NCBI GenBank assembly: GCA_900100325.1
Contig: LT629697.1
Coordinates: 62,001 to 126,000, forward strand
Length of the DNA: 64,000 nucleotides
Source of the DNA: Frankineae bacterium MT45
GTDB lineage: Bacteria; Actinomycetota; Actinomycetes; Mycobacteriales; Jatrophihabitantaceae
Direction: 5' to 3'
Part shown: positions 17,821-35,758 of the stretch, in pieces
Position numbering within the stretch: the first letter of the stretch is position 1
How the letters are laid out: every line of letters starts with the position of its first letter
Translations under genes and position numbers: made by a program
Notes under the pieces: generated by a model
Told to the model about the DNA's origin: nothing
Seen by the model: only the letters and a program-made list of their open reading frames with translations
Database searches by the model: none

Positions 17821-17969
17821 CTAGGCTCCCAGCCATCTAGGTGCTCGGCCATCTAGGCGCTCAGCCCATCTAGGCGCTCAGCCCATCTAGGCGCTCAGCC
17901 CATCTCGGTGCTCCGCCGGTCCTAGGTACTCAGCTGTCTAGATACTCAGCTGTCTAGGTGCGCTCAGCG
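17821..17969. repeat. CTAG-rich tandem repeat array between DUF3073 and purM
   Basis: About eight units of 16-18 bp run head to tail; the consensus is near GCGCTCAGCCCATCTAG. Units 3 and 4 are identical and unit 5 differs from them only in its last tetramer. Units 7 and 8 (TACTCAGCTGTCTAG) form a second subtype. CTAG occurs eight times in 137 bp. The array ends inside purM: the partial last unit supplies the TCA that is the purM stop codon. It lies in a convergent intergenic space. Confidence 0.85.
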
Positions 17970-19109
17970 CCACGCGGCCGCTGGGCCTGCGTAGTCGCCG
18001 GTCATCTGCACCACGCCGCTGCCTTCGATGACCTCGCCGACCCGCCAGGACGGCACGCCCCGCTGAGCCAGCAGCGCCAGCGCGGCGTCGGCCTGCGCCG
18101 CCGGTACCAGGGCGATCATGCCGACACCGAGGTTGAAGGTCAGCTCCAACTGCTCGCGCGCGATCGAACCAGCCGAGGCCAGCAGCGTGAAGATCGGCTG
18201 CGGGCTCCAGGTCGAGCGGTCGACGACGGCGTCCAGGTGCGGCGGAAGGACACGCACCAGATTGCCGGCCAGCCCGCCGCCGGTGATGTGCGAGAAGGCA
18301 TGCGCACCGGCCTCGCCGGCCAGCGCCAGGCAGTCCTTGGCGTAGATGCGGGTGGGCGTCAGCAACACGTCGCCGAGGCTCGCCCCCTCCAGCTCGTCGT
18401 ACTTGGCATCCAGCTGCAGCCCGGCGGTGGCGATGACGTGACGCACCAGCGAGTACCCGTTCGAGTGCACCCCGCTGGAGCCCATCGCGATGAGGGCGTC
18501 ACCGGCCTCAACCCGCTCCGAGCCGAGAATCGAGTCAGCGTTCACCACACCGACGCCGGTTCCGGAGATGTCGTACTCCTCCGGGCGCATCACCCCGGGG
18601 TGCTCGGCCGTCTCGCCGCCGATGAGCGCACAGCCGGCCTGAACGCAGCCCTCGGCGATGCCGCCGACGATGGCCGCGATGCGCTCCGGCACGACCTTGC
18701 CGGTGGCGATGTAGTCGCTCAGAAAGAGCGGTTCCGCCCCGACAACGACCAGATCGTCGACCACCATCGCGACCAGGTCGATGCCGATGGTGTCGTGCCG
18801 CCCCAGCTCCTGGGCGATGGCGATCTTGGTGCCGACGCCGTCGGTCGAGCTGGCCATGATGGGCTGCGGGTACTTCTGCAGGTCCATCGAGAAGAGGCCG
18901 GCGAAGCCACCGAGGCCACCGATCACCTCGGGGCGATTGGTCCGCGCCACCTGAGACTTCATCAACTCGACGGCGCGATCACCGGCTTCGATGTCAACGC
19001 CCGCGGCAGCGTAGGAACTGCCCGCGGCAGCGTAGGAGCTGCCCGCGGCAGCGTTCGAACTGCCCGCCGGGTCGGAACTTACCGGCGAGGCGGCTGGGGT
19101 GGAGGTCAC
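17964..19109 (-). CDS. purM: Phosphoribosylformylglycinamidine cyclo-ligase (AIR synthetase)
   Basis: The product is 381 aa. PurM closes the imidazole ring, making AIR from FGAM with ATP. The usual start motif YxxAGVDIEAG is present, then MASSTDGVGTK, GGETAEHPGVM and the glycine-rich ITGGGLAGN. The N-terminus is unusual: about 37 residues precede VDIEAG, and part of this is a triplicated SS(Y/N)AAAG segment coded by three 21-bp repeats (19000-19062). The GTG start overlaps the purF stop by 4 nt, so purF and purM are coupled. The stop codon lies inside the CTAG repeat array. Confidence 0.95.
   Translation of the reverse strand: MTSTPAASPVSSDPAGSSNAAAGSSYAAAGSSYAAAGVDIEAGDRAVELMKSQVARTNRPEVIGGLGGFAGLFSMDLQKYPQPIMASSTDGVGTKIAIAQELGRHDTIGIDLVAMVVDDLVVVGAEPLFLSDYIATGKVVPERIAAIVGGIAEGCVQAGCALIGGETAEHPGVMRPEEYDISGTGVGVVNADSILGSERVEAGDALIAMGSSGVHSNGYSLVRHVIATAGLQLDAKYDELEGASLGDVLLTPTRIYAKDCLALAGEAGAHAFSHITGGGLAGNLVRVLPPHLDAVVDRSTWSPQPIFTLLASAGSIAREQLELTFNLGVGMIALVPAAQADAALALLAQRGVPSWRVGEVIEGSGVVQMTGDYAGPAAAWR
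19000..19062. repeat. Three in-frame 21-bp tandem repeats in purM
   Basis: Units 19000-19020, 19021-19041 and 19042-19062 share the opening CCCGCGGCAGCGT. They encode, on the minus strand, successive seven-residue copies of the conserved SSYAAAG start segment of PurM; the first-translated copy has Asn in place of Tyr. Confidence 0.85.
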
Positions 19110-20692
19110 TGAAGCGACACGCTCTCTGGGGTCAGGTCTTCGTCGATGAAGCTTCCGACGGCGGCGGCCGAAACCTCGTCCGGCGTTGCCTCCTCGGCCG
19201 CCTGGGCACTGGCGTCGGTGATCGACAGGTTGACGTTGCGTTCGATGCCTTCGAGGACATGCTTGCCGATCATGTCCGACAGCGGGATCGGGTACTCCCC
19301 GGTGAAGCAGGCGTGGCAGAGCCGCGTCTTCGGCTGCTCACTGGCACCGATGAGTGCGCCGAGCGAGACATAGCCCAGCGAATCGGCGCCGATCGACTGA
19401 CGAATCCCCTCGACGTCCAGGCCGTTGGCCACCAGTTCGGCCTTGGAGGCGAAGTCGATGCCGTAGAAGCACGGCCACTTCACCGGCGGGGAGGAGATGC
19501 GGACGTGCACCTCCAGCGCCCCGGCCTCGCGCAGCATGCGCACCAGCGCGCGCTGGGTGTTGCCCCGCACGATCGAGTCGTCGACCACGACCAATCGCTT
19601 GCCCCGCACCACATCCCGGAGCGGGTTCAGCTTGAGGCGGATGCCCAACTGGCGGATCGTCTGCGAGGGCTGGATGAAGGTGCGTCCGACGTAGGCGTTC
19701 TTCACGAGGCCGGTGCCGTAGGGAATGCCGGACTCCTGGGCGTAGCCGATGGCCGCCGGCGTTCCGGACTCCGGCGTCGGCATGACCAGATCAGCCTCGA
19801 CCGGGTGTTCACGGGCCAGCCGGCGACCGATCTCGACCCGGGTCGAGTGCACGCCACGGCCGGAGATGGTGGTGTCCGGACGGGCCAGGTACACGTACTC
19901 GAAGAGGCACCCCTTGGGATCGGGGTTGGCGAAGCGCTGCGAGCGCAGACCCTCCTCGTCGATGGTGATGAGCTCGCCGGGCTCGATCTCACGCACGAAT
20001 GAGGCGCCGACGATGTCCAGAGCCGCGGTCTCGCTGGTGACCACCCAGCCGCGCTCCAAGCGACCGAGCACGAGCGGGCGGACGCCTTGCGGGTCGCGCG
20101 CGGCGTAGAGGGTGTGCTCGTCCATGAAGACCAGCGAGAAGGCGCCCCGCAGCTTCGGGAGCACGTCCATCGCGGCCTGCTCGACCGAGACGTCGGGGCG
20201 CGAGGCGAGGAGCGCGGTGAGCAGGTCGGAGTCGGTGGTGGCGCCGTAGCGGCCCAGATTGCCCAGGCCAGCCGCCTCCGCCTCAGCCACCAACTCGAGG
20301 GTGTTGACCAGGTTTCCGTTGTGGCCGAGCGCCAGCCCGCTACCGGTCGGAGTGGTGCGGAAGCTGGGCTGCGCGTTCTCCCAGGTGGTGGAGCCGGTGG
20401 TCGAGTAGCGCGTGTGGCCGACGGCGATGTGCCCCTGCAGGGTGTTCAGGGTGGCCTCGTCGAAGACCTGTGAGACCAGCCCGAGGTCCTTGTAGACCAG
20501 CAGGGAGGAGCCGTCGCTGACCGCGATGCCGGCCGCCTCCTGGCCCCGGTGCTGCAGGGCGTAGAGGGCGAAGAACGCGAGTTTCGCTACCTCTTCACCG
20601 GTGGCCCAGACGCCGAAGACTCCGCAAGCGTCCTGCGGGCCCTTCTCGCCGGGCATGAGGTCATGTGAGAGTCGTCCGTCGCCGCGCGCCAC
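19106..20692 (-). CDS. purF: Amidophosphoribosyltransferase
   Basis: The product is 528 aa and catalyses the first committed purine step, PRPP + glutamine to phosphoribosylamine. A 22-residue propeptide precedes the nucleophile Cys23 in QDACGVFGVW, which is exposed after cleavage. GHTRYSTTG and GHNGNLVN belong to the class II glutamine amidotransferase domain. LVVVDDSIVRGNT is the PRPP site. CFYGID and CHACF supply cysteines for the Fe-S cluster, as in the Bacillus-type enzyme. The GTG start at 20692 has no clear ribosome site. It heads a purF-purM pair downstream of the lipid operon. Confidence 0.96.
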   Translation of the reverse strand: MARGDGRLSHDLMPGEKGPQDACGVFGVWATGEEVAKLAFFALYALQHRGQEAAGIAVSDGSSLLVYKDLGLVSQVFDEATLNTLQGHIAVGHTRYSTTGSTTWENAQPSFRTTPTGSGLALGHNGNLVNTLELVAEAEAAGLGNLGRYGATTDSDLLTALLASRPDVSVEQAAMDVLPKLRGAFSLVFMDEHTLYAARDPQGVRPLVLGRLERGWVVTSETAALDIVGASFVREIEPGELITIDEEGLRSQRFANPDPKGCLFEYVYLARPDTTISGRGVHSTRVEIGRRLAREHPVEADLVMPTPESGTPAAIGYAQESGIPYGTGLVKNAYVGRTFIQPSQTIRQLGIRLKLNPLRDVVRGKRLVVVDDSIVRGNTQRALVRMLREAGALEVHVRISSPPVKWPCFYGIDFASKAELVANGLDVEGIRQSIGADSLGYVSLGALIGASEQPKTRLCHACFTGEYPIPLSDMIGKHVLEGIERNVNLSITDASAQAAEEATPDEVSAAAVGSFIDEDLTPESVSLQ

Positions 20693-20740: not shown

Positions 20741-21547
20741 CTACGCGCCGGTGATTCGCGTCGCGAATCCACTCCGACTCTCGATCAGCACCCGCTCCGA
20801 GGTGAGCGTCGTGGCCGCTGCGACGTACCCCGGCGGGGCCTCCAGCCGCTGCACCACGGCCGCCGTTTCGGGACGGAAACCCAGTCGCGCCCGGCCCCAA
20901 CTCTGCGCGAGTGGCATCACGGAGACCGCCTTCATGGGCTCACCCAGGCCGTCACCGGTCGCCTTCAGCACGGACTCCTTGGCCACCCAGTAGTCGAAGA
21001 AGCGGCGCACGTCGAACTGGTCGGATTTGCCATCGGCCCCGCGGCGCACGTCGGCCAGTTCCTCATCGGTGAGGACGTTCTGGGCCACCGACGGCAGATC
21101 GGCGGCGTCGGCCAGCTCCTCCACATCGACGCCGACCTGCATTCCGCGCCCGACGAGCAGCGCGATCCAGTCGCCGGAGTGCGACAGCGAGAAGTCCAGC
21201 CGCTGCTCGGGGTCGGCCTCGGCGTCGAAGCGTTCGCCCAGACGCTCGGCGTCCAGCCGCGGCCGTCCGTGCGGGCGGGCACAGTCGGCGCACTCACGAT
21301 CCAGGGGCACGTCAGCCGCCGGGATGCGCAGGATTCCGGCGAGCACCCGGCGCGTCATCGCCACGCCCAGGATGAAGCGGCGGCGGTCGGCGTCGCGGAC
21401 AAATCGATCAGCCCGGTCCCGCTCGACGTCGTCGAGGAGCATCACGTGGGCTGGCTGCAGATCGGCCAGCGAGGCCCACCAGACGTCGGCCCGGCCCGAG
21501 TCCGGACCGCGGGCATCGACCGTGGAATCAAAGAGGGATATTGCCAT
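20741..21547 (-). CDS. 4'-phosphopantetheinyl transferase, Sfp type
   Basis: The product is 268 aa. The family motifs are clear: FSLSHSGDWIALLV, the Mg-binding GVDVE, and WVAKESVLKATGDGLG. A CADCARPHGRPRL segment, usual in actinobacterial members, precedes them. The enzyme transfers phosphopantetheine from CoA to serine residues of carrier domains. The gene begins 20 bp inside the end of the carboxyltransferase gene and is the last of the four-gene operon, so its natural client should be the PKS two genes upstream. It ends 48 bp before the purF start. Confidence 0.93.
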   Translation of the reverse strand: MAISLFDSTVDARGPDSGRADVWWASLADLQPAHVMLLDDVERDRADRFVRDADRRRFILGVAMTRRVLAGILRIPAADVPLDRECADCARPHGRPRLDAERLGERFDAEADPEQRLDFSLSHSGDWIALLVGRGMQVGVDVEELADAADLPSVAQNVLTDEELADVRRGADGKSDQFDVRRFFDYWVAKESVLKATGDGLGEPMKAVSVMPLAQSWGRARLGFRPETAAVVQRLEAPPGYVAAATTLTSERVLIESRSGFATRITGA

Positions 21548-23162
21548 GCTTCTTCGCTGGAAGGTGGTCGACCTTGGTCCGCAGCGTCCGGAGTGCGCGG
21601 GTCACGTAGCTGCGGGTGGACGACGGACGGATCACCGCGTCGATGAAGCCGCGCTCGGCCGCGATGTAGGGCGTGGCCAATGTATCGCGGTACTCGGCGA
21701 TGAGCTTGGCCCGTACCTCCTTCAGGTTGCCGTCCGCCTCGGCGCGGGCCAGCTCGGCCCGGTACAGCACACTCACCGCGCCCTCGCCGCCCATGACGGC
21801 GACCTCGGCCGTCGGCCAGGCGAAGTTGAGGTCGGCCCCGAGATGCTTGGAGCCCATCGTGGCGTAACCGCCTCCGTAGGCCTTGCGGACCACCACAGTC
21901 ACCATCGGGACGGTGGCCTCGCTGTAGGCGTAGAGCAGCTTCGCGCCGCGACGGATGATGCCGTTGCGCTCCTGCTCCAGGCCCGGCATGTACCCCGGAA
22001 CGTCGACGAAGGTCAGGATCGGCAGGTTGAAGGCGTCGCAGAAACGGATGAAGCGGGCGGCCTTCTCGGAGGCGTTGATGTCGATGGTGCCGGCCATATG
22101 CCGGGGCTGGTTGCCGACCATCCCGACGGTGCGCCCCTCGACGCGGGCGAAGGCGCAGAGCATCTGTGGGGCGAATCGTGGGGAAATCTCGAGGTAATCC
22201 CCGTCGTCGGCGACAGCGGCGAAGACCTCAAGCATGTCGTAGCTGGCGTTCGCCGCGTCCGGGACCAGCTCGTCCAGGGCCCGATCCTGCGCAGTCAGAT
22301 CGAGGTCAGCCGCCTGGTCGACGTTCATCGAGTCGTCCAGGTTATTGCTGGGCAGGAAGGCCAGCAGCGCCCGGACCCACTCGAAGGCGTCCTCCTCGTC
22401 GGCCGCGACATAGTGCGTGTTTCCGCTGACTTCGGCGTGCATCTCAGCGCCACCGAGCTCGGCGAAACTGGTGCGTTCACCGGTCACCGCGTAGACGACG
22501 TCCGGGCCGGTGACGAACATCTGCGAGGTCTCAGCCGTCATGACGGTGAAGTCGGTCATCGCCGGTGAGTAGACCGCACCGCCGGCACATGGCCCGAGAA
22601 TCATGGAGATCTGGGGGATCACGCCCGAGAGGCGAGCGTTGCGGCGCCCGATCTGGGCGTAGTAGGCCAGCGCCGACACACCCTCCTGGATGCGCGCTCC
22701 GCCCGAGTCGTTGATGCCGACGATGGGGCAGCCGATCTTCGCCGCCAGGTCCATGATCTTGACGATCTTCTCGCCGTAGGTCTGGCCGAGGCTGCCACCG
22801 AAGACGGTGAAGTCCTGAGAAAACAGGCAGATTGTTCGACCGTCGACCGTCCCCTGCCCGGTGACCACACCGTCACCGAGCGGGCGGTTGGCCTCCATCC
22901 CGAAGTCGGTGGACTGGTGGCGGGCCATTGCGTCGAACTCAATGAAGGAGCCCGGGTCGACCAGCAGGTCGATCCGCTCCCGCGCGGTGAGCTTCCCCTT
23001 CGCGTGCTGGCGTTCGATCGCCCGGGCCGAACCGACGTTGCGCGTCTGCTCCTCGAGCTTGTCGAAGTGGGCGAGTTTGAGCGCCGTCGTGCTCAGGCCA
23101 GGGTCGGGCGCCTCGTCCGCCGATGCGGACGAGGCGTCTGCCGAGATGAACTCGGCGCTCAC
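21528..23162 (-). CDS. Acyl-CoA carboxylase carboxyltransferase subunit, AccD4-like
   Basis: The product is 544 aa, close to the usual 520-550 for AccD/PccB beta subunits. INDSGGARIQEGVSALAYY and GPCAGGAVYSPAMTDF are the two oxyanion-hole regions, and SQDFTVFGGSLGQTYGEKI is a signature of the N-terminal half. It transfers carboxyl from a biotin subunit, which is not in this window, to an acyl-CoA. The GTG start overlaps the PKS stop by 4 nt. In mycobacteria accD4 follows pks13 in the same way and supplies the carboxylated long-chain extender unit. The same role is inferred here; propionyl- or acetyl-CoA carboxylation remains possible. Confidence 0.9.
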   Translation of the reverse strand: MSAEFISADASSASADEAPDPGLSTTALKLAHFDKLEEQTRNVGSARAIERQHAKGKLTARERIDLLVDPGSFIEFDAMARHQSTDFGMEANRPLGDGVVTGQGTVDGRTICLFSQDFTVFGGSLGQTYGEKIVKIMDLAAKIGCPIVGINDSGGARIQEGVSALAYYAQIGRRNARLSGVIPQISMILGPCAGGAVYSPAMTDFTVMTAETSQMFVTGPDVVYAVTGERTSFAELGGAEMHAEVSGNTHYVAADEEDAFEWVRALLAFLPSNNLDDSMNVDQAADLDLTAQDRALDELVPDAANASYDMLEVFAAVADDGDYLEISPRFAPQMLCAFARVEGRTVGMVGNQPRHMAGTIDINASEKAARFIRFCDAFNLPILTFVDVPGYMPGLEQERNGIIRRGAKLLYAYSEATVPMVTVVVRKAYGGGYATMGSKHLGADLNFAWPTAEVAVMGGEGAVSVLYRAELARAEADGNLKEVRAKLIAEYRDTLATPYIAAERGFIDAVIRPSSTRSYVTRALRTLRTKVDHLPAKKHGNIPL

Positions 23163-26100
23163 AACACCCGCGCAGCGAGATCGGCCAGGACGCCGTCGAA
23201 GTGAGCGGCGATGGCATCGACGTTCGGGCGGTCGATCATCGAGATGTGGTCGCCGGGAACCCGGATCACCTCGATGTTCGTGCTGTATTCGTCCCAGCCG
23301 AGCTTCTCGTCGGTACGGCGGTAGCGAGGGTCGATCGTCGCGGCGATCGCCTCGTGCAGGGAGGCGCGGTAGAGAATCATCCGGCCGTGGAAGAGCTTCG
23401 GCTGGTACCGCTCGGCGATGCGCGCATCGACGTAGGAGGTGTACTGGTGCTCCAGCACGCCCGGCGGCATCCCGACCCCGACGCTGGTGAGAGCGTCGCG
23501 GAAGATCGCGATGTGCTCCTGCTCGCTCATGTTGGGCAGGTCGTCGTACGGGATCTCCAGGACCTTGTCGTAGGTCTCCAGGATGTACTCGGCGAAGCGC
23601 TGGTAGCGCCCCACGAGCAACTCGTGCAGCTCCTGATCCGGATCGACGAGCGGGATGATCGTGTCGATACGGGCCAGCACGTCCACCTCTTCGCCGGCCT
23701 CGACGAGCTGGTGGGCCGTCTCCCCGGCCAGCACCCCACCGAAGGACCAGCCCATCAGGCGGTACGGCCCGTGCGGCTGGATCTCGCGGATCAGCGGGAT
23801 GTAGCGGGCGACCTTGGCCTCGATCGTGTCGGCGTCGTCGATCCGCTCGAACCCGTACACGGGCTGATCGGGGTCGAGCATCGACACCAGTGGCTGGTAC
23901 ACGCTGGTCGGTCCACCGGCCGGGTGGAACATGAAGACCGGGGTCCGGGAGCCGGTGCCCCGCAGGACGCGGACCGGCGAACCGCCGTTGCCCTCGAGCT
24001 GCTCCCGGATCAGGTCGGACATCTCGGCGATGGTCGGCCCGGCGAAGAGCTCCGCCGTCGTCGGTGCGCTGCCCAGGCGTTCGGTGATGAGGCGGGCGAC
24101 CTCGTCGGCCGACTCCGTGGTGCCGCCGAGCTCGTAGAAGTTCTCGTTCACACCGACGGGCTTGCGATCCAGCACCTCTTGCCAGAGCAGCACCAGGAAG
24201 CGCTCGGTCGGGTCACGCGGCGGCATGTAGGCCGTGCTCGCCCCGTCCGGACGCAGCTGCAGCGGGTTGTTGTTCCCGGGCATCGACGCGTTGGCCGAGG
24301 CGAAGGACTGGCCGCCATCGGTGACGGCCGACATGTCCACGCCCAGCTCGTTGCCGATGTGCACCGCCAGTTCGAGCAGGGTGGCCCCCTGCAGCACCAG
24401 GCGGATAGGCAGGGTCAGTCCGAGGTCGTGCTCGACGGCGTTCTTGGCCCGGGTGGCCATCAGCGAGTCGAAGCCCATGTCGATCAACGGCGTGTTGACG
24501 TCGAGGTTCTCCGGCTGCGACCCCATCACCGCGGCGACCCGCTCCCGCAGCCGCGCGGTGAGCATGGTGGCGGCCACAGTCGGTTCCGCGGCGCGGATGG
24601 CGGCCACTCCCGGCCACTCGCTCTCGATCTCGCTCTCCAGCTCGTAGTCCCGCATCAGGGTCGAGAAGAACGGCATATCCAGCAGGCCGGGTAGCAGCGA
24701 GATGGCCCGCGGCGGGTCGAGCAGGGCGATGGTGGCCCGGGTCTGCCCGCTGCTGAGCACGACGTTGAGTGCCTGCAGGGCCTCAGTCGGGGTGATCGGG
24801 TCGAGGAGGACGTTCTTGTTCGACGCCGCCCCGCCCACCTTCAGCCAGGCACCCCAGTTGATCGAGTAACCCTGAACGCCGTGGGCGTTCTGCCAGGCCG
24901 AGAAGGCGTCCAGCCAGGCATTTGCGGTCGCGTAGCTGACCTGGCCGGGCGAGCCGACGACGGCGGCCATCGAGGAGAAGGAGATGAACCAGTCGAGGTC
25001 ATGCCCGACTGCTGCAGTGTGCAGGTTCCAGGCGCCGACGATCTTCGTCTGCCAGATCGAAGCGAGCACCTCACTGGTGAGGTCGCCGTAGAGCTGGTCG
25101 TTGAGCCGGGCGGCGGCCAGGTGGGCCACGCCACGCAGCGCGACCCCATCTGCGGTCGCCGCGGCCACGGCAGCGGTCGAGACGTCCGGATCGGTGATGT
25201 CGCCCGGCACGAAGACGACCTCGGCCCGCCAACCCTCGAGTTCGGCGAGCGTCTCCTCGCTCGGCGTGCGGCGGGAGGTGAGCACGATGCGCCGCGCCCC
25301 GTGGTCAGAGAGCCACCGGGCGAAGACGAGACCGATCCCGCCGGTGCCACCGCTGAGCACGTAGCCGCCGTCGCGCACCGGCGTCTCGCCGGCCGGGGTC
25401 GGCGGGGCCTCCTCCAGACGCGAGCTGAACCGCTCGCCACCACGCCAGACCACCTCGTCGTCGACGTGGTTGGCCAGCAGTTCGCGCAGCAGATCGCTGC
25501 CATTCTCCGCCGGGTCGACGTCGACCAGGGTGGCCCGGGCGCCCGGCTGCTCCAGCGCGAGCACGCGCACGGCGGCTCGCAGCGCGGCCTGACCGGGTCG
25601 TCCCGACTCACCCGGAGCCAGACCGGCCGCGCCGGAGGTGGCGATCCAGAGACGGGTCCGCTTGGTCGAGACCTCGTCGGTGAGGGTCGCCGCGACCTGC
25701 CCGACCGTGAGTACGAAGCGCTCGTCGCGCTCCAGCGAGTTCATCGGGGCCGAGAGGTCCTGGGGCACGGCCTGCGCGGCGAAGACGACCACCGACGCGG
25801 GCTCACTCCCCTCCTCGCGCAGGCCCGCCGCGGTGGCGTCGAAGTCGGCCGCCGGGGCGAGTCGCACGTCATGGCCGAGCTCACGCAGACCGTCGGCCAC
25901 CTGGGCCGAGAGCTGCGGTGCCGCATCGGCGTCGAGAAGCAGCCAGGTCGAGGCCTCGCTCAAGCCGGTCAGGGCCGGCAACGGGGTCGGCACGAAGCGG
26001 GTGCGGTAGAGCAGCCGAGACGGTGGCACCACGATCTCGTCGCGATCGATCGCGCGGGACGTGAGGCCGCGCAGCGTGGCGACGACCTCTCCGGAGCCAT

Positions 26101-29100
26101 CCAGGAGCCACGCGCAGCGGGATCCGTCGACCTCGGCGGTGACCAGTCGGCCGCCCTCGCCGATCTCGCCGTTTACTCGCACGGACGCGATTGCCCCGAC
26201 AATTACTGACGATTCCTCGGCGTCGTCGTCGGACTCGACACTCTCCGCGGCGATCAGTCGCAGCAGTTCATCTAGCACCGCGGCCCGCGGGCTGAAGATC
26301 GGAGCGTGCGACGGGTTCTCCGGCGCCGCGACGGGGACGCCCGCGCTCCCCTCCACCGGCACGGCGATAGAGGCCATGGCCGAGGCGGCCGGCGACGAGC
26401 TGACCCGGCCGCTGGCGTTGAGGACCCACGGACCTTGGCCGTCGTTGCGGCTGAAGACCTGAACTGCGCCGGTGACGCTACTGAAGGACGTGGTGATCTC
26501 GGTGTTTTCGCTACGGGTCAGCATCGCGTCGAGGGCGAAGTCGGTGACGACGACCTGGTCGGTGCTCACGTTCAGGCCGACGCCCGCCGCGTTGAGGATT
26601 GCCTCCAGGAAGAAGGCCGCCGGCACCACGGTGACGGCAAAGGCCTTCGCTTCGACGACTCCGGCGATCTCCTGCGTACCGAGCGGGCTGCTCCACAGGT
26701 GTCGTCCGCCCTCGGGGAGTTCGACGTGTGCACCCAGGAAGGGATCACCCAACGGCGCCGCGACCCGGGGCGCCGAGGTGAACCAGAAGCGCTCATTGCG
26801 CCAGACGGTGCGCGGCAGGTCGACGAAGTTGCCGGCAATCCCGACCGGGAGCAGTCCGACCGTGTGGCCGTGCACGTGCAGCTTGGCCAGGTTGGCGGCG
26901 AAGGCCAGCGCGTCGTCGTTGTCCCGCCGCAGGCTGCCGGCGATCACAGCGTCGTTGACGTTGACGCCTTGCAGGGACTTGCTGATCGCGGCCGACGCGA
27001 TCGGATGCGGCGAGACCTCGATGAAGGTGGTGTAACCGTCGGCCGCCGCGGCCGCTACGGCCTGGGTGAAGCGCACCGCCTGACGGGCGTTGGCGACCCA
27101 GTAGGCACTGTCGAAGGCCGGCGTCTCGCGCGGGTCGGCGAGGACCGAGCTGTAGACGCTGACCGTGGCCGGACGGGGCGTGATGCCGGCCAGGCTCTGG
27201 GCGAGATCCTCCAGGATCGGGTCGACGGCCGCCGAGTGTCCGGCACCGGTGACCTTCAACGGCCAGGCGTCGCGGCCGAGTGACTCGACGCGGGCCACCA
27301 GCGCGGCTACCCCGTCCTTCGGGCCGGCCACCGTGCACTGGGTCGGCGCGCCGTACACGGCGATGGTGACGCCGGCCAGCTCGTCGGCGAACTCGGCACT
27401 CCAGCGGGAGAATTCGTCGGCCGTCATGTCGACCACGGCCATCGCCCCGGCACCGGCCGAGTCGATGCTGGAGAGCAGCGCCGAACGCACCGCCATCACC
27501 CGTACGCCATCGGCCAGGGAGAGGGCGCCACTGACGACCGCAGCCGACACCTCGCCCATCGAATGGCCGATAATTGCGGCAGGTTCGACCCCACGCGAGC
27601 GCCAGAGGGCGGCGAGGGCGATCTGCACACAGAAGATCGCGACCTGGTTCTGGGCCACCGTCTCGAAGGCGGCGCCACTCTGCAGCGCGGCCATCACATC
27701 GAGGCCGGCCGCCGCGTCGACCAGGAAGGAGACCTCCTCCATGGCGGCGGCGAAGACGGGCTCGTCGGCGATCAACCGGGCCGACATGCCCGCCCACTGC
27801 GAGCCGTAGCCGGAGAAGACCCAGACCGGTCCCTTGGGACGGACGGCACTCTCGACACGACCGGTGATGACCCGGGCATCGTCGCTGCCGACCACGCGCA
27901 GCGCGGCGATGAGCTCACTGCGGCTGCGCCCGACGACCGCGGCCCGCTGGGCACCATGCCCGCGGTGAGCGGTCAGGCTGGCCGAGACATCGGCCAGCGC
28001 GTCGTCGGAGGTGTTGAGCCAGTCGGCCAGTCGGGACGCGGTGTCGCTCAGCCGGGAGGTCGAGATGGCCGAGATGCCGAGCACGACGACGGCATCGTCG
28101 TTGATCTCGGTCGGGACCGTCACCTGCTCAGGAGCCTCGGTGAAGACGACGTGGGCATTGGTGCCGCCGAAACCGAAGCCGGAGACGCCGGCCACCGCGC
28201 GACCGGAGTAGCGCGGCCACTCGGCACCGGAGCTGGCGACCTGCAGGCGATCGCGCTCGAAACGGATGTGCGGGTTCGTCTGCTCCGCGTGCAGGCTGGC
28301 CGGGATGCGGCCATTGGCCAGCGAGAGAACCACCTTGATAATGCCGGCAATTCCCGCCGCCGCCTCCAAGTGGCCGAGGTTCGACTTGGCCGATCCGATG
28401 AGCAGCGGGCGCGCCGGGTCACGGTCTCGTCCGAGCACCGCGCCGAGCGCGCCGGCCTCGATCGGGTCGCCGAGCAGCGTGCCGGTGCCGTGCGCCTCGA
28501 CGTAGTCGACCTCGGTCGGGTTGACGCCGGCACGGGCGTAGGCCGTCCGCAGCAGCGCCTCCTGGGCGTGCGGGTTCGGGGCCATCAGGCCGTTGCTGCG
28601 ACCATCGGAGTTGACGGCCGAGCCGCGGATGACGGCGAGCACGCGGTCACCGTCGCGGCGGGCGTCGGCCAGCCGCTTGATGACGACCGCGCCGCAGCCC
28701 TCACCGCGGACGATGCCGTCGGCGTCAGCACCGAAGGACTTGCAGCGTCCATCGGCGGCCAGTACGCCACCGAGGTCGAAGTTGGCGGTGATCGTCGGGG
28801 CGAGAAGCAGGTTGACGCCGCCGACGATGGCGGTGTTGCTCTCGCGGGTCCGCAGGCTGGTGCAGGCGTTGTGCAGGGCAACCAGCGATGAGGAGCAGGC
28901 GGTGTCGATGGCCATGCTCGGGCCGCGCAGGTCGAGCAGGTACGAGAGCCGGTTGGCCGCGATGCTGAGGGCCGAACCGGTGGAGGTCCAGGCGTCGATC
29001 GCGGTGATGTCGCGGGCCGTGAGGTGGCTGTACTCGCTGACGCTGATGCCGACGAAGACGCCGGTGGCGCTGCCGCGCAGCGTGTCCGGGTTGACCCCGG

Positions 29101-29770
29101 CGTGCTCCAGCGCCTCCCAGGCGACCTCGAGGAGCAGGCGCTGCTGCGGGTCGGTGACCTCGGCCTCGCGGGGCGAGATCCCGAAGAATTCGGCGTCGAA
29201 TCCGGCCACATCGTCGAGGAATCCGCCCCAGCGCGTGGTGCGGGCCAGCACGGCGTCGTTTGCCGGGGTGGAGTCGATGAACTGACCCCAGCGCCCCTCC
29301 GGGACGGTGCTGATCGCGTCGCGGCCGTGCGTGAGGAGGTCCCAGTAGCTGTCGGGACCGTCGACGCCACCCGGCAGGCGGCAGCCGACACCGATGACGG
29401 CGATGAGATCGTCGTCGGCCTCCTCGCCGGCGGCGTGCCCGGCTACGTGAGCGCCGCCCTGAGCGGCCGTCGTGTCAGCCGTCGCGTCGACCGGCTCCCC
29501 GGCGGCACTCGAAGCACCCGGTTCAACCAGCAGAGCGCTGACGATCTTGTTGATCGTCGGGACTTCCCAGGCCAGCGTCGGCGAGATGTTCTCGTCGAGG
29601 AGATCTTCGAGGTCACCGACGAGCGAGACCGCATCTCGGGACGAGAGGCCGAGCTCCTCGAGCGGGCGATCGGGGTCCGCCCCGCCCAGTTCGGCGACGG
29701 AGGCGATGTTGTTGTTCACCCAATCGACGAGCCAGTCACGCAGCTGTTCAGGTGTGAGGTCTGAGCTCAT
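23159..29770 (-). CDS. Pks13-like type I polyketide synthase with built-in ketoreductase
   Basis: The product is 2203 aa. The order is: carrier domain (1-80, probable phosphopantetheine Ser44 in LGLSSRDAV); ketosynthase (121-545, Cys292 in DTACSSS, His427, His467); acyltransferase (648-945, GHSMGE Ser737); dehydratase-like region (1005-1260) lacking the catalytic HxxxG histidine; ketoreductase (about 1465-1690, GGTGGIG, Lys1576, Ser1599/1600, Tyr1613, Asn1617); carrier (Ser1769 in GFDSLMA); a second carrier-like segment (1853-1925) with LGGTT in place of the serine motif; and thioesterase (1942-2203, GWSFGG Ser2009). The start overlaps the acyl-AMP ligase stop by 4 nt. The mycobacterial Pks13 layout is carrier-KS-AT-carrier-TE. 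The reductase here implies a beta-hydroxy rather than beta-keto product. Substrate lengths are unknown. Confidence 0.92.
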
Positions 29771-31554
29771 TCCGTGGAACCGGCGAGAACGAGCTGTCCG
29801 TCGAGGTAGCGCTGGCGCGTCGCGGCCCGGGCGATCTTTCCGCTCGAGGTGCGCGGGACGTCATTCGGGACGACCAGCACGACGTCGAGGGCGGAGACAC
29901 TGTGGCGCTGCGAGAGCGACTTGCGGATCGCCCGCGACACCGTCTCGGAGTCCCAGGCGTCGGCGCTGGCGTGGCGGGAGATCTCGGCGACGACGACGAC
30001 GCCCTCACCATCACTGGACGGGACCGAGAAGGCCGCCGTGCGGTGCCGGCCGATCGTCTCGTGCGCACCTTCGACGGTGGCCTCGAGGTCCTGCGGGTAG
30101 TGGTTGCGCCCGGCGACGATGATGAGGTCCTTCATGCGGCCGGTGATGTAGAGCTCGCCGTCGACGATGACCCCGAGGTCACCGGTGCGCAGCCACGGCC
30201 CAGCGGGCACAGCGGTGCGCGGGTTGACCAGCGTCTGTCCGAAGACCTCGGCGCTGAGTTCAGGCTTGTTCCAGTAACCGGTGCTGACGTTCGGCCCGTG
30301 AATCCAGATCTCGCCGATGAGCCCGTCTTCGAGGTGCTCGCCATTCTCCGGGTTGGCGATGACGGCGAGCTGGTCGAAGGGCGCTCCGACGGAGACCATC
30401 CGGACCGTGTTCTCGGCGTCGGCGACCGACGTGGTGGCGATGCCCTGCGAGAGCTTTCCGAAGTCGAAGACGGTCTCGGTGGCCGGCTCCGGCTTGGTGC
30501 TGCCGGCGACGTAGACGGTCGCCTCGGCCAGGCCGTAGGAGGGACGGATGACGTTGTCGCGCAGGCCGCAGCTGGCGAAGGCGGCGTTGAACTTGGCCAG
30601 CGTGTCCGGACGGACCGGCTCGGCGCCGTTGGCCAGGGCACGGACGTTCTGCAGGCTGAGCGTCTCCTTCTCGGCGTCGGTGACCTTGGCCGAGCAGTAG
30701 TCGAACGCGAAGTTCGGGGCCGGGCTGATCGTGTTCGGGTACGAGGAGAGCGCCCGCAGCCAGCGCAGCGGCTTGATCAGGAAGGCGATCGGGTCCATGA
30801 AGATCGAGTGGAGCCCACCGACGACACAGCCACCGACCACGAAGACCAGTCCCATGTCGTGGAAGAGGGGCAGCCAGCTGACCAGGTTCACCGGGTCGCC
30901 CTCGCCCTGCAGGGCGAGAATGGCCTGGCTGGCGTTGGCGACCACGTTGCCCTGCGAGATGAGCACGCCGGCCGGGAGGCGGGTCGAGCCCGAGGTGTAC
31001 TGCAGGTAGGCCAGGTCGGTGGCCTTCAGCGGCACCGGCTGGAACTGCGCCGCGAGGTCCAGGTCGAGCTCGTCGATGTTGACGACCGGAATGTCGCCGC
31101 CGGGCTGCGAGGTCAGGAAGTCGTTGACGACCTGCAGGTTGACGTTGCTGGCCAGGGCGGCCACCGGCGCGCAGTCTCCGAAGATCGAAGCGAGGCGGTC
31201 GGAGTGGCCGGGCAGGTCGGGTGAGAAGAGCGGCACGGCAACGATGCCGGCGCGCAGCGCACCGAGGAAGAAGACCAAGTACTGCATCCCCTGCGGGGCG
31301 AGAATGGTTACTCTCTCACCCTGCTTGGCTACAGCCTGTAGGCGAGCGGCGGCGGCGGTGACGCGCCGGTCCAACTCGACGTAGGTGAGGGTCTCGTTGA
31401 CGCCGGCTCGTTCGACTGAATAGTCGATGAAGGTTAAGGCTTCGCGGTCAGGCGCCTCCTGCGCCCAGTGAGTCAAATGCTCACTGACCAGACTGCGTTG
31501 CATGGCCTGTCCGGCCTCACTTACCTGGAAGTAAGTTTCCGATGTGCTGGACAT
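29767..31554 (-). CDS. Long-chain fatty acyl-AMP ligase, FadD32-like
   Basis: The product is 595 aa from ATG 31554. It belongs to the ANL adenylating enzymes: YLQYTSGSTRLPAGVLIS is the phosphate loop, SYGLAEATVYV a core motif, WLRTGDLG the ATP-binding Asp, and GRMKDLIIVAGRNHYPQDLE the hinge. PRTSSGKIAR holds the catalytic lysine. Length, LAPQGMQYLVFFLGAL and the NHYPQDLE region match the fatty acyl-AMP ligase subgroup, which loads fatty acids onto PKS carrier domains rather than onto CoA. The gene is first in the operon, immediately ahead of the PKS, as fadD32 is ahead of pks13 in mycobacteria. GTG 31569 is an alternative start with no ribosome site. Confidence 0.92.
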   Translation of the reverse strand: MSSTSETYFQVSEAGQAMQRSLVSEHLTHWAQEAPDREALTFIDYSVERAGVNETLTYVELDRRVTAAAARLQAVAKQGERVTILAPQGMQYLVFFLGALRAGIVAVPLFSPDLPGHSDRLASIFGDCAPVAALASNVNLQVVNDFLTSQPGGDIPVVNIDELDLDLAAQFQPVPLKATDLAYLQYTSGSTRLPAGVLISQGNVVANASQAILALQGEGDPVNLVSWLPLFHDMGLVFVVGGCVVGGLHSIFMDPIAFLIKPLRWLRALSSYPNTISPAPNFAFDYCSAKVTDAEKETLSLQNVRALANGAEPVRPDTLAKFNAAFASCGLRDNVIRPSYGLAEATVYVAGSTKPEPATETVFDFGKLSQGIATTSVADAENTVRMVSVGAPFDQLAVIANPENGEHLEDGLIGEIWIHGPNVSTGYWNKPELSAEVFGQTLVNPRTAVPAGPWLRTGDLGVIVDGELYITGRMKDLIIVAGRNHYPQDLEATVEGAHETIGRHRTAAFSVPSSDGEGVVVVAEISRHASADAWDSETVSRAIRKSLSQRHSVSALDVVLVVPNDVPRTSSGKIARAATRQRYLDGQLVLAGSTE

Positions 31555-31584
31555 GGAACCCCCGTTCACGATTTTTCAGTTGCC

Positions 31585-31604
31585 GTCGGTACTTAGTAAC
31601 CGAC
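31585..31604. promoter_or_regulatory. Inverted repeat in the leader of the lipid operon
   Basis: GTCGGT (31585-31590) and ACCGAC (31599-31604) flank an 8-nt AT-rich centre ACTTAGTA. It lies between the predicted transcription start near 31625 and the acyl-AMP ligase start codon, so it could be an operator or an mRNA hairpin. Confidence 0.35.
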
Positions 31605-31631
31605 GTCACGCAATTTGAGCTACTCGGCAGT

Positions 31632-31660
31632 AAACTACGGCGCTACGACAAACCTGTCAA
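31632..31660 (-). promoter_or_regulatory. Promoter of the FadD32/PKS/AccD/PPTase operon
   Basis: On the minus strand, perfect -35 TTGACA (31660-31655), 17-nt spacer, and -10 TAGTTT (31637-31632). It is the best sigma-70-type promoter I found in the window. The 31555-31856 gap that holds it is clearly more AT-rich than its surroundings and contains no gene. Confidence 0.65.
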
Positions 31661-31856
31661 TCGCTGACGAGTCGGCTGTTTCGGCGTCTTCACATCGGAC
31701 ACCTGATGGCGCAAATCGCTCACCCAGGGTGCACTGAAGGCCATCAAACACGGACAAAACCTGCAGGCCGGTTCGAGTTAGATACGTGCTAGTTTTTATC
31801 GGCGCTAAGTGACAATGGCGCTTATCAGTTCGTAACTGTAAGTAAGTTATAGTTAA

Positions 31857-32660
31857 TTACCAAAATAGCGGCAGGTACTCGGCGAGAGACGCTCTCGAAC
31901 CACTGGCGCGTACGGCACCGGAGTTGGCGACGGTATCCCACTCGACGCGCCCGGCGGCCAATCGAATCCATACTTCAGGTGACATCTCAACTACGTTCGG
32001 TGGCGTGCCGCGGGTATGCCGGGGTCCGCTGATCGCCTGCACCGCGACGAACGGCGGCACGCGCACCTCGACCGATCGCCCCGGTGCCTCCCGAACCAGA
32101 ATCTCGGCGAGCGCGCGCGTCACCGTGGCCAGGGCGTTTCGCTGCAGTGGAGCCGGCGCGAACTGCGGCAGCGACCGGGAGAGGTCGTCCGTATGCACCA
32201 CCAGCTCGATGAGCCGGGTGAGCAGCCAATCGTCGGCCCGGATCGGTCCCCGTCCACCCCGCAGAACCTCGGTGGGCCCGACCTTCGCCAGTTCCTCCCG
32301 GGGGTCTGGGGCCGAGCGCAGTTCAGCGATCAGATCCTCCGGAGAGCGGTCGTCGGCTACCGTCTCGGTGCGGTCGGCAATCTGGGCCGCCGCCTCCTGA
32401 TACCGGCGCAGATACGCCCCGAGAGGGATCGCCGTCTCGTCGCTTCGGGAGCCCAACCGCTCGATCAACCCCCGGCGCACCAGGATCAGGTGCGCGGTGA
32501 GCATCCGGACGTCCCACCCCGGCAGTACCGAGGGGGCCGAGAAAGCGGCGGCGGGAAGATTCTGCAGCCACTGCAGGGTCAGCTCAGACTGCCCGACGAA
32601 CGCGTCCGCGGCGACCGCGAAGGCCGAACCCGGGCGTCCCTGCCCATCCTTGCGACTCAC
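31857..32660 (-). CDS. Mycothiol-dependent maleylpyruvate isomerase family / sterol-carrier-like protein
   Basis: The product is 267 aa. The N-terminal half is DinB/MDMPI-like: VLPGWDVRMLTAHLILV and LIELVVHTDDLSRSL carry the histidines that bind metal in this family. The C-terminal 90 residues fit the family's sterol-carrier-like domain (VWIRLAAGRVEWD). These proteins use or handle mycothiol, the actinobacterial thiol. The real substrate is not known. The gene follows purL by 46 bp and shares its direction. From memory, genes annotated as sterol-carrier-family occur near purL/purF in other actinomycetes, so this gene probably belongs to the old purine block and not to the lipid operon. Confidence 0.75.
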   Translation of the reverse strand: MSRKDGQGRPGSAFAVAADAFVGQSELTLQWLQNLPAAAFSAPSVLPGWDVRMLTAHLILVRRGLIERLGSRSDETAIPLGAYLRRYQEAAAQIADRTETVADDRSPEDLIAELRSAPDPREELAKVGPTEVLRGGRGPIRADDWLLTRLIELVVHTDDLSRSLPQFAPAPLQRNALATVTRALAEILVREAPGRSVEVRVPPFVAVQAISGPRHTRGTPPNVVEMSPEVWIRLAAGRVEWDTVANSGAVRASGSRASLAEYLPLFW

Positions 32661-32706
32661 TCAGCGCTCACGCCTGTTCACCTTGGACTCACAGAAATGT
32701 GATGGC

Positions 32707-34971
32707 CTACTCAAAGAGCGCTGGGAGCGTGCGGGTCCAGCTCTCACGAAGCTCCCGAAGCGAGACCGAGAACTGGTCCTGCACCTCGAGTTCGCCGGCG
32801 AGTACGTCGATCACGCCAATCCGCGCCGCGGGAAGCCCGCGAGCGGTGCACATGTCGGTGAAACGGATCTCCTCGCTACGCGGAACGGAGACGATCGCCC
32901 GGCCGGCCGACTCGGAGAAGAGGAAGACGAACGGGTCGACCCCCTCCGGGACCACCACCCGCACGCCGTAGTCATTGGCGATCGCCGACTCGACCAGGGC
33001 CTGAGCCAGGCCGCCGTCGGAGAGGTCGTGGGCGGAGTCGATGAGACCGTCCCGTGAGGAGTTGATCAGGATGTCGGCCAGCAGCCGTTCCCGTTCCAGG
33101 TCGACCGCCGGCGGCTTGCCACCGAGGAAGCCGTGCACGACCGCCATCCACTCTGAGCCACCGAACTCGTCACGGGTGTCGCCGAGCAGGTAGACCAGCG
33201 CGCCGTCGCTGTCGAACTCGGCCTTGGTCCGCCGGGTGACGTCGTCGATCACGCCGAGCACGCCGATGACCGGCGTCGGCAGGATCGCGGTGGAGCCCGT
33301 CTGGTTGTAGAAGCTGACGTTCCCACCGGTGACCGGGATGCCGAGCTGCTGACAGCCGTCGGCCAGCCCGCGGACCGCCTCGCTGAACTGCCACATGACG
33401 GCTGGGTCCTCCGGCGAACCGAAGTTGAGGCAGTTAGTGACCGCCAGCGGGCGGGCGCCGGTGGTGGCCACGTTGCGGTAGGCCTCAGAGAGCGCGAGCT
33501 GCGCGCCGGCGTACGGGTCGAGGCGGGTGAAGCGCCCGTTGCCGTCGGTGGCCAGGGCGATGCCCCGCAGGGTGTCGTCGCTCAGGCGCACCATCCCGGA
33601 GTCCTGCGGCTGGGCCAGCACGGTGTTGCCCCGGACGTAGCGGTCGTACTGATCGGTGACCCACGAACGGTCGGCCAGGTTCGGCGACCCGACCATCCGC
33701 AGCAGCGTTGCCCGCAGCTCGTCACCGTTGCGCGGCCGGCGCAGGTCGTCGCCGTGGTGCTCGGTGAGGATGTCCTGGTCGTAGGGACGCTCGATCGGCC
33801 GGCTGTAGACCGGGCCGTCGTGGGCTGCGGTGCGCGGCGGGATGTCGACGATCAGGTCGCCGTGCCACTTCATCCGCAGCCGGCCGGTGTCGGTCACCGT
33901 GCCGATGACGGTGGCCAGCACGTCCCACTTCTCGCAGATCGTCAGGAACTCATCGAGCTTCTCGGGCGTGACGACGGCCATCATCCGCTCCTGCGACTCG
34001 CTCATCAGAATCTCTTCCGGAGCGAGGGTGTAGTCACGCAGTGGGGCCAGGTCGAGGTCGACGTCCATACCGCCGGTGCCGCCGGCGGCCAGCTCGGTCG
34101 TGGCACAGGAGAGGCCGGCCGCGCCGAGATCCTGGATTCCGACGACCAGGTCGGCGGCGAAGATCTCCAGGCAGCACTCGATCAACACCTTCTCGGCGAA
34201 GGGGTCACCGACCTGCACCGACGGGCGCTTGGTGACGCCCTCGGTGTCGAAGGTCGCGCTGGCCAGCACCGAGGCGCCGCCGATCCCGTCGCCACCGGTG
34301 CGAGCGCCGAAGAGCACCACCCGGTTGCCGACCCCGTCGGCCTTGGCCAACTTGATGCCACTGGCCGGGAGAACCCCGACGCAGAGCGCGTTCACCAGAG
34401 GATTGCCCAGGTAGGAGTCGTCGAAGACGACCTCGCCGCCGATATTCGGAAGCCCCAGGCAGTTGCCGTAGCTGCCGACACCGCTGACCACGCCGGGGAG
34501 CACCCGGGCGGTGTCGGGGGCGTCGGCTCGGCCGAAGCGCAGCGAGTCCATCACCGCGATGGGACGGGCGCCCATGGTCAGGATGTCGCGCACGATGCCG
34601 CCGACGCCGGTGGCCGCGCCCTGGTGCGGTTCGACGTAGCTCGGGTGGTTGTGCGACTCGATCTTGAAGGTGACCGCCCAGCCATCGCCGACGTCGACCA
34701 CGCCGGCGTTCTCGCCCATGCCGACGAGCAGCACGTCGGTCTCGGGCGCCTTGTCACCGAACTGGCGCAGGTGCACCTTGGAGGACTTGTAGCTGCAGTG
34801 CTCCGACCACATCACCGAGTAGATGGCCAGCTCGCAGCTGGTGGGACGGCGGCCCAGGATCTCGCGGATGCGCGCGTACTCGTCGTCCTTCAAGCCGAGT
34901 TCGGCGTACGGCTGCGGATGCTTCGGGTTCTTCTTGGCGTTCTTGACCGTGTCGATGCGATCCTCACTCAT
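32707..34971 (-). CDS. purL: Phosphoribosylformylglycinamidine synthase, large subunit
   Basis: The product is 754 aa, the normal size of the small-type PurL that works with PurQ and PurS to make FGAM from FGAR, ATP and glutamine. [31 protein letters not shown] and NCLNFGSP are conserved. ATG 34971 is preferred; it sits in an ATGA overlap with a 28-codon mini-frame that links it to purQ. TTG 34995 is a weaker alternative. The order purC-purS-purQ-purL reads as one operon. Confidence 0.96.
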
Positions 34972-35071
34972 GCTGATACCCCGCTCTTCGCGCAAGCGCT
35001 CATCGACGCACGAGCTCCGGTCCTCGCTCGTACCTCGCTGCGATCCTCACTCATGCTGAAACTCCGCTCTC
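34957..35071. repeat. Direct repeat pair spanning the purQ/purL junction
   Basis: The 32-bp copies 34957-34988 and 35040-35071 match at 29 positions, including 20 in a row. Their spacing is 83 bp. Each copy contains the same ATGA stop/start overlap. The sequence looks like a tandem duplication of an original purQ-purL junction. Confidence 0.85.
34968..35054 (-). CDS. 28-codon mini-ORF linking purQ and purL
   Basis: ATG 35054 overlaps the purQ stop as ATGA, and the TGA (34970-34968) overlaps the purL start as ATGA. The 28-residue product begins [10 protein letters not shown], nearly the same as the PurL start MSEDRIDTV. It ends SGVSA, the same as the PurQ end. It is explained by tandem duplication of the junction. 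It probably serves to keep ribosomes coupled from purQ to purL; a function for the peptide is not indicated. Confidence 0.5.
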
Positions 35072-35758
35072 AACCGCCGATTCGGCGGGCACCTCGACGC
35101 CGATCATCGATAGGAAGAAGCCGAGCCCGTCAGTAGTCGGTCCGGTGAGCGCCTCGACCGCGTGCTCCGGGTGCGGCATCAGCCCGACGACGTTCCCGGC
35201 CTCGTTGCTGATACCGGCGATGTCGCGGTAGCTGCCGTTGGGATTGTCCTGCAAATAGCGGGCGATTACGCGTCCGCTCCCCTCCAGCTCGTCGAGGGTG
35301 TGCTGGTCGGCGACGTATCCGCCCTCGCCGTTCTTCAGCGGGACGACTATCTCCTGCCCCGGCTCGTAGTGCGAGGTCCAGGCGCTGGTCGTGTTCTCGA
35401 TGCGCAGGCGCTGGTCGCGGCAGACGAACTTGCGGCTGTCATTGCGGATGAGTGCCCCCGGGAGCAGGTGCGACTCGCAGAGGACCTGGAACCCGTTGCA
35501 GATGCCCAGCACGGGGAGGCCGTCGCGGGCGCCGGCGATGATCGCCTCCATCACCGGCGAGAAGCGGGCGATGGCGCCGCAGCGCAGGTAGTCGCCGTAG
35601 GAGAAGCCGCCGGGCAGGACGACCGCCTCGACGTCATGCAGGCTCGGGTCGGCGTGCCAGAGCGGGATGGCCTCACCGCCGGCAATCCGGATCGCGCGCA
35701 ATGCGTCGGTATCGTCGAGACTGCCGGGGAACGTAACAACACCTACGCGCTGAGCCAC
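35051..35758 (-). CDS. purQ: Phosphoribosylformylglycinamidine synthase, glutaminase subunit
   Basis: The product is 235 aa, a class I glutamine amidotransferase that supplies ammonia to PurL. The nucleophile is the cysteine in [10 protein letters not shown], and [10 protein letters not shown] carries the His/Glu of the triad. [10 protein letters not shown] and [12 protein letters not shown] are family motifs. The GTG start lies 6 nt after a TAATCT -10 box, suggesting its own leaderless transcript in addition to any read-through from purS. Confidence 0.96.

Follow-up and report, generated by a model that had tools for sequence, protein, structure and literature searches.

Can a bacterium that does not seem to have a mycobacterial cell wall carry out a mycolate-type condensation and reduce the product within the same protein, and how would such a protein be related to Pks13? 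The question is raised by a four-gene operon of Frankineae bacterium MT45, found in a stretch of 64,000 nucleotides (contig LT629697.1, positions 62,001 to 126,000; the window, to which all positions below refer). The operon encodes a fatty acyl-AMP ligase (FAAL), a polyketide synthase (PKS; the synthase), an AccD-type acyl-CoA carboxyltransferase and an Sfp-type phosphopantetheinyl transferase (PPTase). Its gene set, domain order, active-site residues, carboxyltransferase and acyltransferase signatures and kinship with Pks13 were all read from sequence. They point to a mycolate-type condensation operon with built-in ketoreduction, which probably yields an alpha-alkyl beta-hydroxy acyl product.

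Gene set and synthase domains

The four genes are all open on the minus strand and linked by start/stop overlaps, according to the reading-frame check (Table 1). Pfam agreed with the functions given to them in a first-pass annotation made from the letters alone; the operon end given there (31660) lies past 31569, where the FAAL frame has its first start codon. FAAL, synthase and AccD adjoin in that order, which is the fadD32-pks13-accD4 pattern. In the synthase, Pfam recognized a ketosynthase (KS), an acyltransferase (AT), a weak dehydratase (DH) match to PKS_DH_N, a strong ketoreductase (KR), three PP-binding stretches (acyl carrier proteins, ACP) and a thioesterase (TE).

The KR lies between AT and carrier, as first annotated, and looks intact, with a Pfam score of 167 bits, the motif GGTGGIG and a complete tetrad. 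The tetrad columns were invariant in a 17-row alignment that included the window. The KR was 87% identical to that of the congener (genome G018); in a comparison with five further KR-bearing relatives the identity was 40-51%. The Trp that marks A-type KRs is missing, and the LDD motif appears as LND, with its Asp retained, a pattern which we take to predict a D-hydroxyl, as in mycolic acids. Chance domain matches were rejected on the KR score and the invariant tetrad.

The DH-like region reached 27.6 bits with PKS_DH_N, against a cut-off of 27. In the aligned column of the catalytic histidine the window has Ala and the congener Val, confirming the loss noticed earlier, and the YGP segment is deleted in both. 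Of the 27 aligned KR-bearing rows, 15 (Pseudonocardiaceae, families f12 and f14) retained the catalytic His and the Asp together with a YGP-type motif. The other 12, without the full set, were the window, the congener, eight Streptosporangiaceae, Wenjunlia and Actinacidiphila. The Parafrankia row (L072) was absent from the linker and DH alignments and shows the DH His in another alignment. By their residues, the Pseudonocardiaceae loci and L141-L145 and L147-L150 seem to have an intact DH beside an intact KR; if such loci have no enoylreductase (ER), they would be expected to make an alpha-alkyl alpha,beta-unsaturated acid.

Structure prediction of the DH-like and KR regions, proposed as a check in the first-pass annotation, was in line with these assignments. 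The AlphaFold2 model of residues 989-1740 (predicted local distance difference test, pLDDT, 79.8; predicted template modelling score, pTM, 0.80) matched in Foldseek the DH-ER-KR part of a PKS like mycocerosic acid synthase (MAS), the PKS CalA3 and several KR structures. The top match was 5bp4 (MAS type), with an E value of 1.8e-41; CalA3 was matched as 8i4y/7wvz. The synthase resembles MAS in its KS-AT-DH-(ER)-KR order, and CalA3 (KS-AT-DH-KR) in domain order and predicted fold. MAS is iterative, has an ER and is not known to have a TE; CalA3 is not known to have a FAAL-loaded N-terminal ACP or an AccD operon. A comparison with CalA3 is also drawn in the relevant passages of the Pks13 cryo-EM paper (PMC11649247).

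The carrier set is of the Pks13 type, with two serine-bearing ACPs, one of them N-terminal, and a serine-less third (psiACP) before the TE. Pks13 carries a cryptic inactive ACP before its TE, as described in the passages on its carriers (PMC9210659). A counterpart of psiACP turned up in 14/14 Pks13 when the search used a profile derived from that same set; with BLAST, one of three Pks13 was matched (31% identity over 81 residues, E 5e-4). The inactive third carrier had not been listed in the first-pass annotation, nor had the kinship between the AT-ACP linker of Pks13 and the DH-like region.

Table 1 Features of the operon and of its synthase in the window.
Feature	Position	Strand	Description	Basis
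FAAL	29767..31569	-	600 amino acids, first gene of operon	reading frame, Pfam, NCBIfam
Synthase (PKS)	23159..29770	-	2203 amino acids, ACP1-KS-AT-pseudoDH-KR-ACP2-psiACP-TE	Pfam, NCBIfam
ACP1	29531..29749	-	N-terminal, residues about 8-80, Ser44 present	domain search, active-site alignment
KS	28130..29410	-	residues about 121-547, Cys292 in DTACSSS	Pfam, alignment
AT	26777..28078	-	residues about 565-998, GHSMG; GAGH motif common to Pks13	alignment
DH-like region	25871..26749	-	degenerate, residues about 1008-1300; retains the Asp but neither the catalytic His nor the YGP segment	Pfam, alignment
KR	24707..25726	-	structural and catalytic half, residues about 1349-1688, tetrad K1576 S1600 Y1613 N1617	Pfam, alignment, model
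ACP2	24359..24568	-	residues about 1735-1804, GFDSL serine present	alignment
psiACP	23996..24232	-	inactive carrier domain, residues about 1847-1925, GGTTES replaces GGxS motif	alignment
TE	23186..23956	-	residues about 1939-2195, Ser-Asp-His present	Pfam, alignment
AccD	21528..23162	-	acyl-CoA carboxyltransferase, 544 amino acids	Pfam, aligned pocket residues
PPTase	20741..21547	-	Sfp type, 268 amino acids	Pfam

Kinship with Pks13 and the predicted extender unit

The synthase grouped with true Pks13, and not with unrelated PKSs. In the KS tree the window and Pks13 shared a clade of 26 rows (support 85). In the KS-AT tree (49 rows; a quick and a careful run), one family of 44 rows (support 100/97) included the window, and inside it a 26-row clade (95/98) joined 15 KR-bearing synthases, one of which is the window, to 11 true Pks13. 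The window stood outside the 11-row Pks13 clade proper. Before this tree was built, nine family rows, three of them Pks13, had been removed as redundant; two intended outgroup rows were not included.

The AT motif GAGH was found in 19/19 KR-bearing ATs counted and in 29/30 ATs of the short forms described below, the remaining one having VAGH. GASH or GAGH was present in 14/14 Pks13, and neither in 23 other ATs, one of which had TAGH. This count excludes eight loci repeating the window, the congener or L142, and 17 with partial family copies or other PKS pieces. YASH is the motif for methylmalonyl and HAFH that for malonyl, according to the passages on AT motifs in PMC6164871.

The window AccD has Gly at the position equivalent to 161 and Ala at that equivalent to 421/422. 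It shares these residues with MccB-type acyl-CoA carboxylase, which makes unusual alkylmalonyl extenders; the passages on the MccB and PccB structures describe Gly161, and Ala at the position of PccB Asp421, as admitting longer chains (PMC5187497). Among AccDs of operons with a FAAL and a KR-bearing PKS (n = 19), the pocket was Gly/Ala in 16, Ser/Ala in one and Val/Gly in two; among AccD4 (n = 6), Gly/Ala in five and Ser/Ala in one. Streptomyces short-form AccDs had Val/Ala (6/6), and nine out of nine other AccDs, four of them from the host itself, had Phe161 paired with Asp, Ile or Tyr. Six carboxyltransferases were found in the host, of which L156 was not included in the pocket alignment. 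A short-chain AccD was rejected on the Gly/Ala pocket. MccB-type carboxylase supplies a modular PKS, not a FAAL-loaded condensase. In the AccD tree the operon AccDs, AccD4 and the host paralogue L151, PccB-like by its Asp, shared one 32-row clade without internal resolution. The signatures of both AccD and AT agree with a predicted extender of the long-chain alkylmalonyl type.

The likeness to Pks13-FadD32-AccD4 covers gene order, the arrangement ACP-KS-AT...ACP-psiACP-TE, KS kinship, the AT motif GA[GS]H and the Gly/Ala pocket of AccD, and the half-DH remnant of Pks13 sits where the window has its DH-like region. Pks13 has no KR and half a DH, it gives a beta-keto product, and a separate reductase, CmrA, acts after the condensation, as stated in the passages on this step (PMC9900942; PMC2568869). 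Unlike the Pks13 system, that of the window includes a full KR, a dead DH of greater length and a linked PPTase, and its host gave no match to the Emb arabinosyltransferase.

Proposed route and rival readings

From these features we infer substrates, chain lengths, order of events, acceptor and product as follows. The PPTase would arm ACP1 and ACP2. The FAAL would turn a fatty acid into acyl-AMP and pass it to ACP1, and from there the chain would move to the KS. Together with a biotin carboxylase whose gene lies outside the operon, AccD would carboxylate the alpha-carbon of a second acyl-CoA longer than C4, and the AT would set the resulting alkylmalonyl unit on ACP2. The KS would join both into an alpha-alkyl beta-ketoacyl-ACP2, whose ketone would be reduced by the built-in KR with NADPH. 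The hydroxyl would stay, without dehydration, because the DH-like region appears dead. With water or some alcohol as acceptor, the TE would release or transfer a "mycolate-like" lipid, the 2-alkyl-3-hydroxy acyl chain. An alpha-alkyl beta-hydroxy lipid made in one protein, as first proposed for this operon, is supported at the sequence level, with the product as its predicted part.

For the chain lengths we can offer a guess. A type I fatty acid synthase (FAS) would be caught by PF00109. The PF00109 matches in the host were the synthase, one KS frame of 417 amino acids and three partial ones in frames of 400-415 amino acids. Since there was one other full-length KS match only, the host seems to have no type I FAS; we therefore guess that the chains are ordinary ones of C14-C18 and that the product is near C30-C36 in length.

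Several results weigh against such a mycolate-type reading. On the curated Pks13 model NF040607 the synthase scored 1414 bits, below the cut-off of 2100, and the FAAL scored 539.9 bits with the FadD32 model NF038339 (cut-off 975); its best NCBIfam model was the fatty-acid--AMP ligase PRK05850, at 590 bits, below the cut-off of 775. The window had no supported position within the 26-row clade, and its AccD was not placed with AccD4 by the AccD tree. In a wider row set, the AT motif was GAAH in four f12 relatives and VAAH in one f14 relative. The KR could also be silent or used differently.

An ordinary single-module PKS of secondary metabolism, loaded with a fatty acid by the FAAL, taking malonyl- or methylmalonyl-CoA from AccD and giving a linear or 2-methyl 3-hydroxy acid, is unlikely. 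Small extenders are, to our knowledge, common in FAAL-PKS systems, and the PccB-like L151 falls in the same clade as the operon AccDs; against this stand an AT with GAGH and not HAFH or YASH, the Gly/Ala pocket in place of the Phe with Asp or Ile of short-chain enzymes, and a KS-AT akin to Pks13. It is rather less probable still that the KR has no part in the main product and that a beta-keto product is released, then decarboxylating to a ketone or being cyclised. Pks13 itself releases a beta-keto product, in the account of PMC9900942 on that step, and KR-less relatives exist, but the tetrad is intact and invariant, and the KR has the identities given above to those of the congener and the five other relatives. 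We regard a working DH-like region, which would lead to an alpha-alkyl alpha,beta-unsaturated acid, as very improbable: the kept His, YGP-type motif and Asp belong to relatives whose likely product is an enoyl acid, while the window and congener have the His replaced and the YGP segment deleted.

The idea of a true Pks13 orthologue with an extra KR in a mycolate producer can be given hardly any credence. The host is placed by the tool's taxonomy in the same order as family f7, which has true Pks13, but its synthase remains under the curated cut-off. This cut-off was reached in 14 of 121 genomes, all from f7, and in the Corynebacterium glutamicum control; in the host no Pks13 exceeded it, so that the separate ordinary pks13 locus named in the first-pass annotation as a counter-sign was not found. 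The Emb arabinosyltransferase (PF04602) gave no match in the host genome, C. glutamicum being the sole positive of 14 controls. Two PF00756 proteins of the host had no mycolyltransferase among their NCBIfam matches, the presence of that model in the library being unchecked. MMPL-type proteins gave 12 matches in the host. A mycolate-producing host was rejected on the missing Pks13, Emb and mycolyltransferase matches. The host does not seem to have a mycobacterial cell wall, consistent with the earlier suggestion that the operon possibly belongs to an organism outside the classic mycolate producers. We retain the mycolate-type condensation with built-in ketoreduction as the preferred reading.

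Relatives, genomic setting and a probable origin of Pks13

A scan across named genomes with the synthase as query gave 46 loci, 17 KR-bearing (Saccharopolyspora, Amycolatopsis, Bailinhaonella, Planobispora, Planomonospora, Streptosporangium, Wenjunlia, Actinacidiphila and Parafrankia) and 29 from Streptomyces; genomes near the window's organism may be missing from it. The DH-KR-ACP piece was matched at E 1e-60 in 20 of 150 genomes of the host's order, host and congener included, some of the matches being other PKSs. The order FAAL-PKS-AccD was found in 14/14 Pks13 loci; it also held, FAAL and AccD both adjoining the PKS, in nine of the 17 KR-bearing loci of the scan and in eight of nine other KR-bearing loci. 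A host-specific oddity was rejected, with relatives in several actinobacterial families. The four-gene set, whose search in relatives the first-pass annotation had proposed, was found there in part: many had FAAL, PKS and AccD, and among the relatives' loci read a PPTase match adjoined the operon only in the congener. The pathway had been called unusual or undescribed; no description of a KR-bearing Pks13-like operon was found in the open-licence literature searched, and the family is not peculiar to the host.

The Streptomyces loci (L042-L046, L048, L049, L051, L055, L057, L059-L068, L071, L073, L075-L081) had frames of 1320-1800 amino acids, and DH and KR were missing in the 10/10 given a domain search. 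Their compact, KR-less form is ACP-KS-AT-ACP-TE, mostly beside AccD and FAAL in the order AccD-FAAL-PKS, and a 2-alkyl-3-keto acid or ketone is its expected product. Eight Streptosporangiaceae loci (L041, L050, L052, L053, L054, L056, L058 and L069) were KR-bearing with a dead DH, and FAAL and AccD did not directly adjoin the PKS; L041 and L056 had a FAAL piece about 9 kb off. One genome (G127) held a KR-less (L146) and a KR-bearing (L147) member together. In Parafrankia L072 the N-terminal ACP was not seen in the synthase frame, though FAAL and AccD flank it.

The operon is flanked by purF (19106-20692) and SCP_3/purL (31857-34995), with purM past purF, in keeping with the purM noted before in the neighbourhood. 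It interrupts a purine cluster (purM, purF / SCP_3, purL, purQ; 17964-20692 and 31857-35758). The congener has the operon at the same place, with identities of 94% (FAAL), 86% (PKS), 96% (AccD) and 77% (PPTase). Among 21 other host-family genomes having a purF locus, purF was directly beside SCP_3, then purL, in nine; an SCP_3 piece lay 1.1-1.3 kb from purF in three; and nine had neither arrangement, some of these loci being ended by contig edges. A full-length synthase match was not seen in the other 22 host-family genomes, many of them incomplete; the best matches were pieces of other PKSs, at most 49% identical to the synthase among the strong matches listed. The DH-KR-ACP piece had no match at E 1e-60 in the 18 listed of those 22 genomes. 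The base composition of the operon is unremarkable. Upstream of the FAAL gene (31570-31856) there is a G+C dip (0.595 over 31000-31999), possibly a promoter region.

The stretch between AT and ACP2 of true Pks13 measures 142-167 residues. Compared profile to profile, this linker aligned collinearly with the N-terminal DH region found in the KR-bearing family, scoring 71 with a probability of 96, or 67 once the post-AT motif was taken out. In 100 column shuffles the top score was 26.3, and a reversed alignment scored 17.6. A rerun with the tool's own alignments gave an E value of 7.7e-10, for this single profile pair. Other searches did not pick up this homology: Pfam PKS_DH_N matched none of eight Pks13 linkers even at E 10 (two DH-intact relatives score 77-78 bits), the DH profile of the KR-bearing family listed 58 PDB sequences up to an E value of 1, none of them Pks13, and a Pks13-linker profile found only three Pks13 sequences and one weak unrelated match. 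The link is visible by profile-profile comparison only. Work with AlphaFold2 and cryo-EM has led to the proposal that M. tuberculosis Pks13 contains a pseudo-dehydratase, DH*, at residues 1074-1172 (PMC11649247, sections on DH*), and this proposal agrees with the predicted homology. The linker holding DH* would correspond to the DH-like region of the window, at the same place; in Pks13 it is the N-terminal half only, with no KR after it. Those sections of PMC11649247 do not mention a lost KR.

Since Pks13 is nested in this synthase family and keeps half a DH between AT and ACP, it most likely lost an ancestral KR, with reduction passing to CmrA. Over the 44 family rows KR presence requires three changes. 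The earliest branches are all KR-bearing (with weak support, 88/43, for which of the first two split off first), and KR loss in Pks13 is therefore the simpler reading. In an approximately unbiased (AU) test, forcing all 25 KR-bearing rows together was rejected (p 0.013). Forcing all 33 non-Pks13 rows together, with Pks13 outside all other family members, gave a borderline result (p 0.048). Of the 11 Pks13 rows, 10 were flagged by the tree program for unusual residue composition. The tree test for KR loss is borderline to moderate.

We think it reasonably probable that mycolate-type condensation predates mycolates. An ancestral FAAL-PKS-AccD system with full DH and KR would persist in actinobacteria outside the Pks13 family, with DH and KR intact by residues in Pseudonocardiaceae, f12 and f14, and with a dead DH and a live-looking KR in the window genus. 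Pks13 would be a derivative from which the KR and half the DH were deleted, DH* being the scar and reduction having been given to CmrA, and in the Streptomyces short forms this region would have been lost in a separate event. One would then expect alpha-alkyl beta-hydroxy or alpha-alkyl enoyl lipids, so far undescribed, in these bacteria.

Such a history gives Pks13, a tuberculosis drug target, a testable origin. It would explain both its odd pseudo-dehydratase and the need for a separate mycolate reductase. A further prediction is that mycolate-like lipids, made along a one-protein route, occur in bacteria from which no such lipids are known, among them Amycolatopsis, Saccharopolyspora and perhaps Streptosporangiaceae.

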